This document shows, piece by piece, positions 2,598 to 11,114 of a DNA stretch of 39,305 nt. The position numbers were made by a program, and so were the translations under genes. The notes beneath the pieces were generated by a model. That model had not been told where the DNA came from, searched no databases, and worked only from the letters and a program-made list of their open reading frames with translations. Within the stretch, counting starts at the first letter, position 1, and every line of letters starts with the position of its first letter. The stretch is from Fimbriimonadaceae bacterium (lineage in GTDB: Bacteria; Armatimonadota; Fimbriimonadia; Fimbriimonadales; Fimbriimonadaceae): the NCBI GenBank assembly GCA_024710805.1, contig JANJUB010000064.1:1-39305 (forward strand), given 5' to 3'.

Positions 2598-4289
<1,692 letters not shown>

Positions 4290-4458: not shown

Positions 4459-6531
4459 GTGAAGCAATATAGTGCTGACAAGATTAGAAATGTGGCCATT
4501 GTAGGCCACGGCGGTTCCGGCAAGACGATGCTCGTCGAGCACTTGCTGTACACCGCCGGGGCCGTTGACCGGGTGGGCTCCGTGGATGCGGGCAACACCC
4601 AGAGCGACTACGATCCGCTCGAAATCCGCCGCAAGATCAGCATCAGTGCCTCCATCGTCCCCTTGGAGTGGCACGATCACAAGATCAACTTGATCGACGT
4701 TCCGGGATACCCCGACTTCATTGGGGACCTTCATGGGGTGGCCCGTGTTGTCGAAGCGATGATCATCGTCTGCGAAGCCAAAGCCGACTTGGACGTGGGC
4801 TTTGAGCTGGCCTGGGAAGTCGCCGAGCAGTACGGCCTTGCCAAGTGCATTTTCGTCAACAAGCTCGAGCGCGACAACGCCGACTTCGACGGCCTCATCA
4901 ATACGCTGCACGAGCGCTATGGCCGCAAGGTCGTGTGCGTCCAAATCCCGATCGGGCACCAAGCCGCGTTTAGCGGAGTCCTCGACCTGCTGAACATGAA
5001 GGTCTATAAGGGCAAGGACCGCGGCGTCGAAATGGAAGAGCTGCCGACGGGCTATGCAGAAGAAGCCGCCGAGCGACGCGACAAGATGATGGACGCCGCC
5101 GCCGAAGGTGACGATGAGCTCGCATTGAAGTATCTCGAGGGCGAGGAACTGAACCCGCTCGAGATCGAGCATGGCCTGCTCGTGGGTACGGAGAACGGCA
5201 AGGTCGTTCCCGTCCTGCTCGGTTCTGCGATGAGCGGCATCGGTGTCGCCACGCTGCTCGACCGAATCATCGGCGAACTTCCCTCTCCCAAGGATAAGCC
5301 AAAGGTTTTCGACGGGCGCGAACTCAAGCCCGATCCGGACGGCCCGCTCGCCGCATTCTGTTTTAAGTCGACGGCCGACCCGTATGTGGGCAAGCTCAAC
5401 TACGTACGAGTGTTTAGCGGCACGCTCAAGCAGGACATGAACGTGCTGAACATGAACCGCGAGAAGGAAGAGCGGTTGCATAACATGTACTTCGCGCACG
5501 GCAAAGGACAGGAACCTGCCCAGAACGTGGTCGCGGGGGACATCTGCGTGCTCGCCAAGCTGTCTGATACCCATACGGGGGATACCCTGTCCACGGGCAA
5601 GGACAAGATCATGCTCCCGCCCGTTGAGTTCCCGGACCCCATCTACCGGGTGGCGATCAAGCCGGTCGCCAAGAGCGACGAAGACAAACTCGGCCCGGCG
5701 CTAGCGAAACTCCTCGAAGAAGATCCGACGTTGCGGTACGTCCGTGACGCCGAACTCCATCAGGAGATCCTGGAGGGCATGGGCGACATCCACCTCGATG
5801 CGACGATCGAGAAGCTCAAAACGCGCTTCGGCGTTAGCGTCTCGACGGAAGAGGCCAAAGTTCCGTATCGCGAGACGATCCGCGCGGCCTCCAAGGCCCA
5901 AGGTCGGCACAAGCGCCAAACCGGAGGCAAGGGTCAGTATGGCGACTGCTGGATCGAACTCTCCCCGGTCGGTCGAGGCGAAGGATTCTCGTTCGACAAC
6001 AAGGTTGTCGGCGGCTCGATTCCGAAGAACTTCATTCCGGCCATCGAAAAGGGCATCCGGGAGACGATGGAGCTTGGATTCCTCGCGGGTTTCAAAGTGG
6101 TCGATGTGAAGGCGACGGTGTACGACGGTTCGTACCACGACGTCGACTCAAGTGAAATGGCGTTCAAGATCGCGGGATCGCTGGCCTTCAAGGCCGCGGC
6201 AGAAAAGGCCAATCCGGTGATCTTGGAGCCGATTCTGGAGCTCGAAGTCGATGTTCCGGATGACACGGTCGGCGACGTAGTCGGCGATCTCAACGGGCGC
6301 CGTGGACGCCTGCAAGGCATGGACCCGATCACGGCGGGCAAGACGCGCGTCCGCGCCCAAGTGCCCATGGCGACCATGACCCGATACGCGCTGGACTTGC
6401 GCTCGATCACCAAGGGGCGAGGGCGCTTCCGGCAGAACGTATCGCACTATGACGAGCTTCCGCATCCCGAGCAGCAGGCCCTCATGGCCGAGTACCAGAA
6501 GCGGCGCTCCGATCACGAGAACGACCACTAG
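4459..6531 (+). CDS. Elongation factor G-like GTPase (EF-G2 type, 690 aa)
   Basis: A translational GTPase of EF-G architecture. The P-loop is GHGGSGKT (residues 16-23), the G3 motif is DVPGYPDF (80-87) and the G4 position reads NKLERDN (134-140) instead of the canonical NKMD. Domains II to V follow, including KQTGGKGQYGDC in domain IV and a C-terminal GRGRFRQNVSHYDELP. The GHGGSGKT form and the altered G4 separate it from housekeeping EF-G, which reads GHIDAGKTT and NKMDR. It fits the EF-G-like paralogues seen in Thermus, Thermotoga and many other phyla, whose exact role is unsettled. The GTG start is supported by a GGAGG about 6 nt upstream. It is divergent from carB. Confidence 0.88.
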   Translation: MKQYSADKIRNVAIVGHGGSGKTMLVEHLLYTAGAVDRVGSVDAGNTQSDYDPLEIRRKISISASIVPLEWHDHKINLIDVPGYPDFIGDLHGVARVVEAMIIVCEAKADLDVGFELAWEVAEQYGLAKCIFVNKLERDNADFDGLINTLHERYGRKVVCVQIPIGHQAAFSGVLDLLNMKVYKGKDRGVEMEELPTGYAEEAAERRDKMMDAAAEGDDELALKYLEGEELNPLEIEHGLLVGTENGKVVPVLLGSAMSGIGVATLLDRIIGELPSPKDKPKVFDGRELKPDPDGPLAAFCFKSTADPYVGKLNYVRVFSGTLKQDMNVLNMNREKEERLHNMYFAHGKGQEPAQNVVAGDICVLAKLSDTHTGDTLSTGKDKIMLPPVEFPDPIYRVAIKPVAKSDEDKLGPALAKLLEEDPTLRYVRDAELHQEILEGMGDIHLDATIEKLKTRFGVSVSTEEAKVPYRETIRAASKAQGRHKRQTGGKGQYGDCWIELSPVGRGEGFSFDNKVVGGSIPKNFIPAIEKGIRETMELGFLAGFKVVDVKATVYDGSYHDVDSSEMAFKIAGSLAFKAAAEKANPVILEPILELEVDVPDDTVGDVVGDLNGRRGRLQGMDPITAGKTRVRAQVPMATMTRYALDLRSITKGRGRFRQNVSHYDELPHPEQQALMAEYQKRRSDHENDH

Positions 6532-6540
6532 CAGTCTGTT

Positions 6541-6618
6541 GAATGTTGAATGTCGGATGTGGCTGGATCCCGGATCCCTAGCGACATCCGACATCCGACA
6601 TCCGACATCGAACATCCC
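6541..6618. repeat. Heptamer-built inverted repeat, copy A
   Basis: The left arm consists of heptamers GAATGTT, GAATGTC and GGATGTG. A central GCTGGATCCCGGATCC block follows. The right arm has the reverse-complement heptamer GACATCC three times, then GACATCG and AACATCC. The two arms can pair over about 20 nt to form a long hairpin. The right arm ends 9 nt before the thioesterase ATG, and no Shine-Dalgarno sequence lies between. Related copies occur at 7161-7217, 13665-13726 and 37637-37701. Confidence 0.8.
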
Positions 6619-6627
6619 AGATTTCCA

Positions 6628-7158
6628 ATGCACAGCAAGACCGTCTCCGCCTCCCGCGTGATCATGTCGAAGGTCATGGAGCCGACCGACGCCAACTTCC
6701 TCGGGAAGGTGTTCGGTGGCTCGATCCTGTCGCTCCTCGACTTGGTGGCCTACGCGACGGCGTCGCGTTTCGCGGGCAACATCTGCGTGACAGCCTCGTT
6801 CGATCGAGTCGATTTCCATGAGCCTATCGAGGTGGGTGAACTGGTCATCTGTGAGGGACGCATCTCCTACACGGGTCGAACGTCGCTGGAAGTTACGATC
6901 GAGGTGTTCGCCGAGAACATCTACGAGCAGAATCGCCGTCACACGAACACCGCTCGGGTCACGATGGTGGCGATCAAGGAAGGCAAACCCGTCCCAGTGC
7001 CCGCGCTGGTGTGCGAGACGCGTGAGGATCGTCTTTCATTTCTAGAGGGACAGCTTCGGCGGACGTATCGAGCCCAGCAGCGCGAGGAACTGGCCGCGCA
7101 AGTGGCGGCGCTTCAGAGTCTTTCGGACGAGGATCTGTTGGCGCGGATGCCGGGGTGA
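6628..7158 (+). CDS. Acyl-CoA thioesterase, hotdog fold (YciA/BFIT-like, 176 aa)
   Basis: A single-hotdog acyl-CoA hydrolase. It begins with the typical VMEPTDANFLGKVFGGSILSL, where the Asn-Phe-x-Gly-x-x-Phe-Gly-Gly segment and following helix carry the active site. It continues with ASFDRVDFHEPIEVGELV, the conserved strand that binds the CoA moiety, and RHTNTARVTMVAI. Family members hydrolyse acyl-CoA to free fatty acid and CoA in the cytoplasm. The C-terminal ~40 residues are a charged helix (RAQQREELAAQVAALQ). I chose the ATG at 6628 because upstream in-frame codons fall inside the hairpin repeat and encode repeat-derived residues. It is 96 nt downstream of the EF-G-like gene on the same strand, with only repeat A between. 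Confidence 0.85.
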   Translation: MHSKTVSASRVIMSKVMEPTDANFLGKVFGGSILSLLDLVAYATASRFAGNICVTASFDRVDFHEPIEVGELVICEGRISYTGRTSLEVTIEVFAENIYEQNRRHTNTARVTMVAIKEGKPVPVPALVCETREDRLSFLEGQLRRTYRAQQREELAAQVAALQSLSDEDLLARMPG

Positions 7159-7217: not shown

Positions 7218-7270
7218 CTTGCCTAGGGTTCGTCGCGTATTGCCCCCGAACGTCTATATGTTCGTGCAAT

Positions 7271-7363
7271 GACCCCGGAGGGGTCGCAGAGCTTAGCCCC
7301 GGCGTCGCCTCCGGGCGACCCGGGGTAGGCGCCGCCATTTCCCCATGCACCCCGACGGGGTGC
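7271..7363. repeat. Array of three GC-rich hairpins (CCCC/GGGG family), left flank
   Basis: Three perfect short stem-loops lie in tandem. The first is GACCCC-GGA-GGGGTC at 7271-7285. The second is nested: CCCCGG...CCGGGG at 7297-7325 enclosing GTCGCC-TCC-GG-GCGAC. The third is GCACCCC-GAC-GGGGTGC at 7347-7363. The orphan gene begins 23 nt later. Two of these stems reappear, with different loops, on the other side of that gene at 8021-8110. None is followed by a T-run. Confidence 0.7.
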
Positions 7364-7385
7364 CAGATCACATGTACATGCGCGC

Positions 7386-8012
7386 ATGGAGCCGTTGGCG
7401 CGCTGGATCCGGAGGGAGTATGAAGTTCCACTCATCTGGCCGACCGTGTCGGTGTTTCTTGGTCTTCTAGCTGCACTCCTAGTTTTCATAGGCAGTATGG
7501 GGCAGCCAAGCGCGGCAGGGGTGGTCGTCCCTGTCTTCTCGATTCTCCTCGGATCTACTCCGGCTATGCTTCACGCCCTTAGGAATCGCCATCGGCCAAA
7601 GTTGAACTGGCTCGTGGTTGCGGCCAATCGCGGGCAGTTACCTCAAGCTATTGGACCCCGCGCCGAGCAACTCAATGAGGGCGCACTCGACCTCGAGCAG
7701 ATTGTCAACGCGTTGCGGCAGGACTTCTCAGCCACGATTGATTGTAGGCACCTGAGCGCTCAGGCGAAGGAGCGCTTCCGCCGCGCGTTTGATTTGTCGC
7801 TCGGTGCGGCTGCGGGTTACTCGCTCACCCGCGATGGAGCCGAACGGCAAATCGACGCGGACCTCGAATGGCTTCGTCAAGTTCGGCAACATAGCGAGAA
7901 GCTCTTGCTCAGCCCCAGTCAATCCGAAGAGAGCCGGGAGCACCTCCACGAGCTTGAGGCCCTGGTTGCGGCCCGGGAAGAGGCGATTGAAGAGCTTGGC
8001 TTGCGGGGGTGA
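7386..8012 (+). CDS. Unknown membrane protein with two TM segments and a cytoplasmic helical domain (208 aa)
   Basis: I do not recognise a family. Residues about 16-38 (PLIWPTVSVFLGLLAALLVF) and 44-66 (AGVVVPVFSILLGSTPAML) are two hydrophobic segments forming a probable hairpin in the membrane. The remaining ~140 residues are charged and helical, ending in SREHLHELEALVAAREEAIEEL, a likely coiled coil. The ATG at 7386 has no Shine-Dalgarno sequence; the preceding bases are a short palindrome, CATGTACATG. The gene sits alone between two arrays of similar GC hairpins and is convergent with the ATP synthase operon, so the context gives no functional clue. Codon usage looks somewhat less GC-biased at third positions than its neighbours. 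Confidence 0.65.
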   Translation: MEPLARWIRREYEVPLIWPTVSVFLGLLAALLVFIGSMGQPSAAGVVVPVFSILLGSTPAMLHALRNRHRPKLNWLVVAANRGQLPQAIGPRAEQLNEGALDLEQIVNALRQDFSATIDCRHLSAQAKERFRRAFDLSLGAAAGYSLTRDGAERQIDADLEWLRQVRQHSEKLLLSPSQSEESREHLHELEALVAAREEAIEELGLRG

Positions 8013-8020
8013 GTGTTCTG

Positions 8021-8110
8021 GCACCCCTCCGGGGTGCGGGTTGGAGGCGATCTGTACCCTTGGTCGACCGGAGTCGACCAAGGGCTAAGGTCTACGACCC
8101 CTTCGGGGTC
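8021..8110. repeat. Array of three GC-rich hairpins (CCCC/GGGG family), right flank
   Basis: Three perfect stem-loops follow the orphan gene's stop: GCACCCC-TCC-GGGGTGC (8021-8037), a 12-bp stem CCCTTGGTCGAC-CGGA-GTCGACCAAGGG (8057-8084) and GACCCC-TTC-GGGGTC (8096-8110). The first and last share arms with hairpins at 7347-7363 and 7271-7285, so the gene is bracketed by the same two stems in opposite order. They may also end transcription of either convergent unit, although T-runs are missing. Confidence 0.7.
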
Positions 8111-8157
8111 CAACACTCCAACAAGCCAACACGCAAACACGCTAACAAGCCAACCGG
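8111..8157. repeat. Low-G, CAA-rich repeat tract
   Basis: The strand reads as imperfect repeats of CCAACA/CAAACA units, with AACAAGCCAAC present twice (near 8119 and 8144). It lies between the hairpin array and the atpG stop codon. On the atpG mRNA this would be a G/T-rich 3' tail. No function can be assigned. Confidence 0.5.
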
Positions 8158-8162
8158 CCGAA

Positions 8163-9020
8163 CTATCCGTTCAGCGCTTCTGCGCCGCCGACGACTTCCA
8201 AGATCTCCTTGGTGATGTTCGCCTGGCGTTCGCGGTTGGCCTTCAAGGTCAACTGCTGGATCATCTTGCCCGCGTTGTCGGTGGCGCTGGTCATGGCACT
8301 CATACGAGCACCGTGCTCCGAGGCCGTCGCCTCCATCAGCGCCTGCCAAACCAGACCCATGAAGTAGCGCGGAAGCAGCGTGTTCAGCACTTCGTCGGCA
8401 TTCGGCTCGAACTGGTAGTCCGTTGAGCCCTGGCTATCCTCGACGTCCGGTGCCTCGATCGGCAGAAGTTGCACCACCTGAGGAACCTGGCGGATCGCCG
8501 AATAGAACTTGGAGTAGCAGATGTACACCGCGTCGACTTCGCCGCTCGTGTACAGCTCCTTGACCTTCTCACCCAGCACCAGCGCATCATCGTATCGAGC
8601 GCCCGCCGAAGGGACCGTGTGGGCGTAGATCACGTTGATTCCCCGCTTGGAGAAGAACTGATTGGCCTTGCGCCCGACAGCAAGCATGACCTTCTCGGTC
8701 TCGATCGTGCGCAGGAAGTCGCCGCCCTTTCGAAGCAGATTCGTGTTGTAGGAACCGGCAAGGCCACGGTCGGCGGCGATCATGATGAGCGCCACCTTCT
8801 TAACCTCGCGCTTCTCCATCAGCGGATGCTCGGGCAGTTCGCCGGCACCGGAAAGCGAGACCATAATCTCGCGAAGCTTGTCGCTGAAGGGCCGAGCCTC
8901 CAACACGCGGTCCGTCGCCTTCTTCAGGCGCGCCGCCGCCACCAGCTTCATCGCGCGGGTGATCTGCTGGATATTCTTCGCGGACTTAATCCGCTGACGA
9001 ATCTGCTTCAGGTTAGCCAT
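8163..9020 (-). CDS. atpG: F1 ATP synthase gamma subunit (285 aa)
   Basis: Gamma is the central rotating shaft of F1, coupling proton flow through Fo to catalysis in the alpha/beta hexamer. The N-terminal helix reads MANLKQIRQRIKSAKNIQQITRAMKLVAAARLKKA, a highly conserved start. The C-terminal helix includes EHGARMSAMTSATDNAGKMI, the Met-Ser-Ala-Met-x-x-Ala-Thr-x-Asn-Ala motif that runs up the hexamer core. The length is normal. It is the last gene of this operon, 6 nt after atpA. In most bacteria atpD and atpC follow, but here the next gene is convergent and unrelated. Confidence 0.97.
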   Translation of the reverse strand: MANLKQIRQRIKSAKNIQQITRAMKLVAAARLKKATDRVLEARPFSDKLREIMVSLSGAGELPEHPLMEKREVKKVALIMIAADRGLAGSYNTNLLRKGGDFLRTIETEKVMLAVGRKANQFFSKRGINVIYAHTVPSAGARYDDALVLGEKVKELYTSGEVDAVYICYSKFYSAIRQVPQVVQLLPIEAPDVEDSQGSTDYQFEPNADEVLNTLLPRYFMGLVWQALMEATASEHGARMSAMTSATDNAGKMIQQLTLKANRERQANITKEILEVVGGAEALNG

Positions 9021-10562: not shown

Positions 10563-11114
10563 TTAGTGTTGCTTGAGTAAGTCGTATTTGAGGCGATCCC
10601 GGAGGAGGTTCAGCGAACCTCGCACCGTTCCGTCCAAGACGTAGTCGCCGACGGCGACCTTGACACCGCCCATGAGGGCGGGATCGATGCGGAAATCGGG
10701 CTCTACGGTCTTTCCGCTTTGCGAGGAAAGTTTGCTGATGAGGGCGGTCTTCTCTGATTCGGTGAGTTCCACCGCCGAAGTGATCACCGCGTAGAGCACG
10801 GAACCTCGCTCGCGGCGCATCCGCACATATTCTTCGCGGATGGCGTCGAACTCGCTTTCGCGTCGCTTGTTCAGCATAAGCCGGAGCATCGACATCGAGA
10901 GTGCTGTGACACGGTCGGAGAAGAGGCGCTCGGCGATCCGCACTTTGTCGTCGCGGCTGATCCGAGGACTCTGAAGGAACCCTCGGAACTGCGCGTTGTC
11001 GGCGGCGAGACTCGAGATCGCGCCGAGATCACTCTCGACGGCTTCGATGACGCCCGCTCGCTCGGCCGCATTGAAGAGCGCCCGCGCATATCGTTTCGCG
11101 ACGCGACTGTCCAT
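10563..11114 (-). CDS. atpH: F1 ATP synthase delta subunit (183 aa)
   Basis: Delta sits on top of F1 and ties it to the peripheral stalk b subunits. The protein shows the conserved N-terminal VAKRYARALFNAAERAG and the C-terminal signature LMGGVKVAVGDYVLDGTVRGSLNLLRDRL, which matches the OSCP/delta pattern. The length is normal. The start ATG at 11114 is 2 nt beyond the atpF stop codon, so the two are probably translationally coupled. Confidence 0.95.
   Translation of the reverse strand: MDSRVAKRYARALFNAAERAGVIEAVESDLGAISSLAADNAQFRGFLQSPRISRDDKVRIAERLFSDRVTALSMSMLRLMLNKRRESEFDAIREEYVRMRRERGSVLYAVITSAVELTESEKTALISKLSSQSGKTVEPDFRIDPALMGGVKVAVGDYVLDGTVRGSLNLLRDRLKYDLLKQH

Follow-up and report, generated by a model that had tools for sequence, protein, structure and literature searches.

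The window (the whole 39,305-nucleotide stretch that was analyzed) contains, between a thioesterase gene and atpG that point towards each other, an orphan open reading frame for a 208 amino acid protein. Two units of ~100 bp, each with three hairpins, face each other across this frame in opposite orientation (Table 1). The order within a unit is HP1 (GACCCC/GGGGTC), a linker close to GCAGAnnTTAGCC, the longer and variable hairpin HP2, a spacer, HP3 (GCACCCC/GGGGTGC) and then CAGAnCAC; the stem sequence of HP2 differs between the left and the right side of the block. HP3 is the innermost hairpin on either side, so that the hairpin order is reversed on the right. The sequence-only reading of this DNA had described six hairpins, three per side, with their loops and order and with both named stems shared by the two sides, and all of them were confirmed. 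It had also called the neighbors unrelated, which fits a thioesterase-like gene and atpG. The left unit starts 112 nt past the thioesterase stop codon and its inner end lies 12 nt before the orphan start, and the gap between the two units is 637 nt. Gaps between convergent genes are described as a usual location of REP-like repeats (PMC3733652).

Table 1. Features of the block and of related loci. Positions are those of the window unless a locus is named.
Feature	Position	Strand	Remarks
Left neighbor, 4HBT-fold thioesterase gene	6550..7158	+ (towards block)	Pfam PF03061, E 2.5e-19
Left three-hairpin unit	7270..7373	+	model R1 85.8 bits; leave-out model R2 E 4.6e-15
Left unit HP1	7271-7285		GACCCC/GGGGTC
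Left unit linker	7286-7298		GCAGAGCTTAGCC
Left unit HP2	7297-7325		variable stem sequence
Left unit HP3	7347-7363		GCACCCC/GGGGTGC; inner tail CAGATCAC
Orphan ORF, 208 aa	7386..8012	+	no Pfam/NCBIfam match over cut-off
Right three-hairpin unit, mirror image of left	8011..8111	-	R1 88.5 bits; leave-out R2 E 9.9e-15
Right unit HP3	8021-8037		GCACCCC/GGGGTGC
Right unit HP2	8057-8084
Right unit HP1	8096-8110		GACCCC/GGGGTC
8-nt-period repeat, CCAACACG-type	8112..8162		between right unit and atpG, outside block
Right neighbor, atpG (ATP synthase gamma)	8163..9020	- (towards block)	Pfam PF00231, E 4.3e-95
Unit/small-gene island, sister species G001, C31	L111, 1071-3440
Unit/small-gene island, own genome G000, C33	L142, 1668-2374
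Transposase-bracketing loci			L098, L099, L101, L102, L103, L104, L105, L106, L109 (one pair), L114, L138, L139, L140

Single short hairpins mean little here because the window is so rich in GC stems: 54 GC-rich stems of at least 6 were counted, against 20-32 in ten first-order Markov controls, and many of them lie inside genes. To avoid circularity, a covariance model (R2) was built without any window sequence. Trained on the six units that the genome has outside the window, it recovers both window units (Table 1) as well as those of the block in a sister species, G001 (E 1.7e-12, and 1.8e-4 for a shortened one). In an alignment of nine units 93% of the cells are paired, a share that is favored by taking the structure from one of the nine rows, and eight pairs have changed on both sides yet still pair; none of 500 shuffled controls reached eight double-changed pairs (mean 2.5). 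This alignment comprises eight full or partial units of the window's own genome and one unit of the sister species, whose shortened left copy was left out. Based on the leave-out model and the covariation, the ordered three-hairpin unit is not a product of chance, and generic hairpins arising by chance were excluded as an explanation. The leave-out model also gave a weak match on the forward strand at 10594-10691 (E 0.006), inside an ATP synthase subunit coding sequence, which is probably due to chance.

One possible option is that the hairpins simply terminate transcription of the three genes that converge here (thioesterase, orphan and atpG), with no element involved. The gap is indeed convergent, the hairpins are stable (z of -4.1 and -4.9), and the HP2 stem of the right unit is kept between the two species by a compensating T-A to G-C change, as read from the alignment. 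However, the three-hairpin unit of ~100 bases, together with its linker, is common to transposase elements of other genera (see below), which is unexpected of generic terminators. The units gave no Rfam family match at gathering score, a result with which ordinary terminators would still be compatible. We regard this option as improbable, and the hairpins may serve as terminators alongside another role.

The orphan protein has two N-terminal hydrophobic helices (about residues 17-37 and 44-63, by eye), and its tail was predicted by AF2 to be all-helical, at low confidence (pLDDT 50.6). Searches of Pfam and NCBIfam gave no match over cut-off, the best weak Pfam match being DUF6611 (E 0.023), so the earlier description of a gene without a recognized family holds. 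Its product is probably a membrane-anchored accessory protein. By profile search the gene is present in two of 291 genomes of the phylum (own included), both of the same genus. A protein search of 100 relatives gave one further copy, in the sister species G001 of the same genus, and a short-peptide-pattern scan of GTDB genome contigs found this copy again; beyond it, no second copy was found in the own genome, the relatives, the 291 phylum genomes or the viruses and plasmids searched. The profile search also gave two weak partial matches (E 0.001 and 0.009) that span about 50 residues close to the membrane part of the N-terminus and were not counted as relatives of the orphan.

In the sister species the block lies at the same site with both units present, the left one shortened. 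The one other genome that carries the gene therefore has it with the same flanks, and the gene was not seen to be conserved without its hairpins, the outcome that the sequence-only reading had named as contrary to its proposal. The two proteins are 63.5% identical, with dN 0.29 and dS 1.46; residues 76-208 are the most constrained (dN 0.14) and the N-terminal membrane part the least (dN 0.66). The orphan is under purifying selection. The dS of the four genes around it is 0.44-0.93, below that of the orphan, which indicates that the orphan evolves faster altogether. In the right unit 90 of 102 bases are the same in the sister species, compared with 47% agreement at the orphan's third codon positions. 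These data are most simply read as a block that is older than the split of the two species and has been maintained. At present it has the character of a fixed locus with vertical inheritance, old and stationary. Repeats of the CCAACACG type were seen in the sister species on both sides of the block and in inverted orientation (L011, about 3880-3925 and 4732-4775), and its block looks as if set within an older inverted repeat of this type; similar repeats occur at C120 and C138, there without units. The sister record itself (JADZEW010000008.1, L011) is titled Methanoregulaceae archaeon, yet the contig has bacterial EF-G and F-type ATPase genes, and this label looks wrong.

At least eight units were found in the 3.25-Mb genome by model R1 at E up to 1, with 150 of 704 first-look candidates scored, so that a few weak ones may be missing: two in the block, three within about 700 bp on contig C33, and one each on C63, C35 and C207. 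Such a number is far from hairpins scattered genome-wide, which had been named beforehand as the other outcome that would speak against a cassette. In the family, the unit is present in 16 of 61 genomes (R1, E up to 0.01) and in 17 of 85 (R1, E up to 1e-8); filters were stricter in these searches than in the own genome, and pairs with weak members can be missing. Counting every forward match directly followed by a reverse match at a gap of 250-3000 nt, there are 16 mirrored adjacent pairs among the 218 matches listed. Thirteen of these, in other genera and with gaps of 382-548 nt, enclose a gene for an IS200-like transposase or a broken version of it, and two others are the block of the window and that of the sister species. 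The last pair, in genome G102, has a gap of 1764 nt in which an ankyrin-like gene (named by eye) lies between separate dimers, 232 and 62 nt from the units, with no transposase match. A tyrosine-transposase match is thus carried by 13 of the 14 bracketed loci in other genera, G102 being the exception; four of the bracketed loci also supplied query transposases for the match search. Seventeen further mirrored neighbors among the matches listed have a gap of less than 250 nt and are REPIN-like, close groups of units occur elsewhere (L108, L112, L115 and L116), and in G014 (L100) a forward unit stands 519 nt ahead of a forward-reverse dimer with no transposase match in between. The G102 and L100 cases indicate that a mirrored or nearly mirrored geometry can form with no element involved.

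The block shares with the transposase elements both the likeness of its arms and the place of its gene. Its two arms are 77% identical, within the 72-85% of the 13 elements, while arms of different elements, the window included, are on average 67% identical. Within the genome's eight units, the window arms are also each other's best match, the other units reaching at most 73% and 74%. The orphan stop codon ends 1 base beyond the right-unit start. The corresponding offsets of 15 bracketed transposase genes are -27, 8, 3, -24, 4, 3, 4, -5, -12, 2 (L114), -4, 5, -13, -1 and 0, and in 11 of the 15 the stop lies within 8 bases of the right-unit start. This shared register places the orphan where the elements have their transposase gene, although the open frame of the orphan is longer and the gap of the window block exceeds those of all 13 elements. 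At the solo units of C63 and C207 a stop codon also lies at most 4 bases away on the HP3 side, so nearness to a stop codon is not confined to bracketed genes and may be a property of the units.

A rather likely explanation, and the one that we favor, is that the block derives from an IS200-like element whose ends were mirrored three-hairpin units, a TIRtron in the sense of Di Nocera et al. (2013), and that, lacking a transposase of its own, it has a passenger gene in place of the transposase gene. We base this on the mirrored ends, on kindred ends round transposase genes elsewhere, on the stop register, and on a gene under purifying selection at the same site in two species. The ends and the gene likely came together as one insertion. 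A related tyrosine (HuH) transposase, acting in trans, would have recognized both sets of terminal hairpins in single-stranded DNA and would then have moved all the DNA between them, and the hairpins would also stop transcription on either side of the block. Speaking against this explanation, no second copy of the gene, clean empty site or cognate enzyme was found, the gap is longer than in the 13 elements, and G102 and L100 show a similar layout of units with no transposase match. The earlier proposal of a non-autonomous cassette, or a REP-type unit that had picked up a gene, accords with the bracketed transposase genes of other genera. Recent or demonstrated movement of the block is not supported, as it was found once in its genome and has the same position in the sister species, and neither is present mobility.

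Another hypothesis is that the orphan is native, or arrived in some other way, and that two REP-like units with a preference for gaps after genes were inserted independently on its two sides. Solo units do adjoin other genes (C63, C207 and C35), those of C63 and C207 also within a few bases of a stop on the HP3 side; units cluster closely elsewhere, with the 17 short-gap mirrored pairs as further examples, and the two dimers of G102 enclose an ankyrin-like gene in this same arrangement. Against independent insertions stand the two window arms, which match each other best, and the mirrored geometry and stop register, which are those of transposase elements. Moreover, the left unit is 112 nt from the thioesterase stop, but its inner end is only 12 nt from the orphan start. 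This hypothesis seems to us unlikely, yet deserving of serious consideration. We give very little credence to a third one, by which the orphan would be the strongly diverged transposase of the element itself. It has the same position and the same stop register, and two H-x-H matches in the open frame look like chance, but the frame is without the catalytic-tyrosine motif, the N-terminus has two hydrophobic helices, Pfam and NCBIfam gave no transposase match, and tblastn of five element transposases against the window gave none at E 0.01.

Five of the bracketed transposases were scanned, two from the own genome and three from other genera, and all match the NCBIfam IS200/IS605 model NF033573 at E 2.1e-12 or better; two of the five exceed its cut-off, and all five are far under the cut-off of the REP-associated model. 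HuH and tyrosine motifs are present in most bracketed transposases of the relatives, and the RAYT motif NP(L/V)(R/K)xG was not found in the 15 bracketed transposase frames read, one of which is a wrong frame. A search for a RAYT (TnpA-REP) gene in the genome had been suggested with the sequence-only reading, and transposase genes of the IS200 type are there, with 11 Y1_Tnp matches of which eight are over cut-off. Two own-genome transposase genes (L012 and L014) are flanked by diverged units, seen as weak R1 matches (E 1.1e-4 to 0.06); the leave-out model finds the right-hand units only at these two and no unit at L013, the third full-length transposase gene. In the two genomes of the genus 16 R1 units were found (eight each), none of which encloses a gene resembling those of the element transposases, so that no cognate enzyme was identified. 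On contig C35, a degenerate-looking ORF resembling a Y1 transposase (by eye) was seen 70 nt from the solo unit (L143, 1605-2072, reverse strand); it is not among the Pfam Y1_Tnp matches of the genome.

The site of the block in relatives was examined at 28 loci from other genera (L034-L061, taken 1.5 kb beyond atpG, some clipped). The thioesterase gene is seen at three of them (L037, L045 and L058), and a longer stretch adds L126; the orphan gene is at none of these. An empty site in relatives had been proposed as a check, and no clean one was found, since relatives with the thioesterase-atpG pair have other genes in between. Another small membrane gene family was seen in this gap, in either orientation, in G012 (L037, 901-1485), G043 (L045, 831-1445) and G007 (L126, about 2790-3281). 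This gap looks like a hot spot for orphan genes.

Other loci of the genus also combine units with small genes. On C63 a family-less ORF (240 aa as called) has its stop at the HP3 side of the unit, and in comparison with the sister species the flanks are continuous while 771 bp with the ORF and the unit are absent there in one stretch. This difference may be a deletion rather than an insertion; among nine further genomes with the left neighbor gene, used as outgroups for the polarity, none has the right one in the stretch examined. C207 has a unit and an orphan ORF between a presumably YajQ-like gene and a DUF1552 gene; this locus was rejected as an empty site in the sister species, where its two flanks are on different contigs. 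On C33 and the syntenic C31 of the sister species, units alternate with small membrane or secreted-protein genes (Table 1), and between matching flanks the two species have stretches of 789 and 685 bp that are unlike except for a unit, a pattern that would fit an exchange of genes beside units. A lipobox-like signal peptide (...LLAAC) was recognized by eye at the start of the first gene of L111, and fragments of similar gene starts were seen again beside several units.

Several known systems resemble the block. In TIRtrons, mirrored repeats surround the gene of a TIR-associated tyrosine transposase (TIRYT); the repeats can be self-complementary, and solo and dimeric repeats are described from some of the same genomes (PMC3733652). 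The block likewise has an ORF between long mirrored terminal repeats, and it lacks the defining content of a TIRtron because the gene inside is not a Y1 tyrosine transposase. A further difference is that the GGGGWSAS motif given for TIRtrons (PMC3733652) is unmatched by GGGGTCGC or GGGGTGCC, by eye. Mobile insertion cassettes (MICs) have IS-type ends, a passenger gene and no transposase of their own (PMC3129680), and the block, in its likeness to MICs and to transporter IS, has IS-type ends round a passenger gene and no transposase, where "IS-type" rests on the likeness to the ends of transposase elements. As to movement in trans, or copies at several sites, one copy is seen, at the same site in both species. 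MICs of the IS231 type have the ends of DDE-type IS, whereas the ends of the block belong to the IS200-like tyrosine-transposase family. In Borrelia plasmids, IS605 stem loops persist beside lipoprotein genes and stay structured, as in the block; they are single stem loops at gene 3' ends, in contrast to the mirrored three-hairpin pair that brackets a gene here (Delihas, 2009; PMC2775950).

REPtrons, in which inverted palindromic units surround a Y1 transposase gene (RAYT), also have a similar layout (Nunvar et al., 2010; PMC2817692). The unit of the block differs in its ~100 bp, its three hairpins and its low copy number (at least eight in the genome), and the relatives' transposases differ in the missing RAYT motif and, in the five scanned, in the better fit to the IS200 model. 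The combination of a GTAG head, a short palindrome in high copy and the RAYT motif that characterizes GTAG-type REPs and REPtrons was not found. REPINs are dimers without a gene. Classical IS200/IS605 elements are presented in PMC2817692 as having no terminal inverted repeats, and the block ends are mirrored, although the five bracketed transposases match NF033573.

REP- and TIR-type elements are usually treated as repeats plus a transposase. "Passenger" is absent as a word from the main texts of PMC8266576, PMC6006769 and PMC3733652, and so is "cargo" from that of PMC8266576; among the open-licence papers listed by our searches we recognized none that describes a passenger gene between TIRtron ends. 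Here a mirrored pair encloses a different gene, which selection has preserved across the divergence of two species, and this suggests that ends of this kind are able to introduce and establish new genes in the manner of DDE-type mobile cassettes. Rather speculatively, three-hairpin ends without a transposase might form, in this genus, a system for the capture and shuffling of orphan membrane and secreted-protein genes (the window block, C63, C207 and the C33/C31 island), a class of mobile cassette built on tyrosine-transposase ends. These same loci offer concrete places for studying gene gain through HuH-type ends. The sequence just before the gene starts was considered as a possible leaderless promoter: TACAAT (by eye) stands before the orphan of the sister species, before the genes of C33 and C31 and before the gene at L013, with TACATG in this place in the window copy, and none of the 36 long open frames of the window is preceded by TANAAT.
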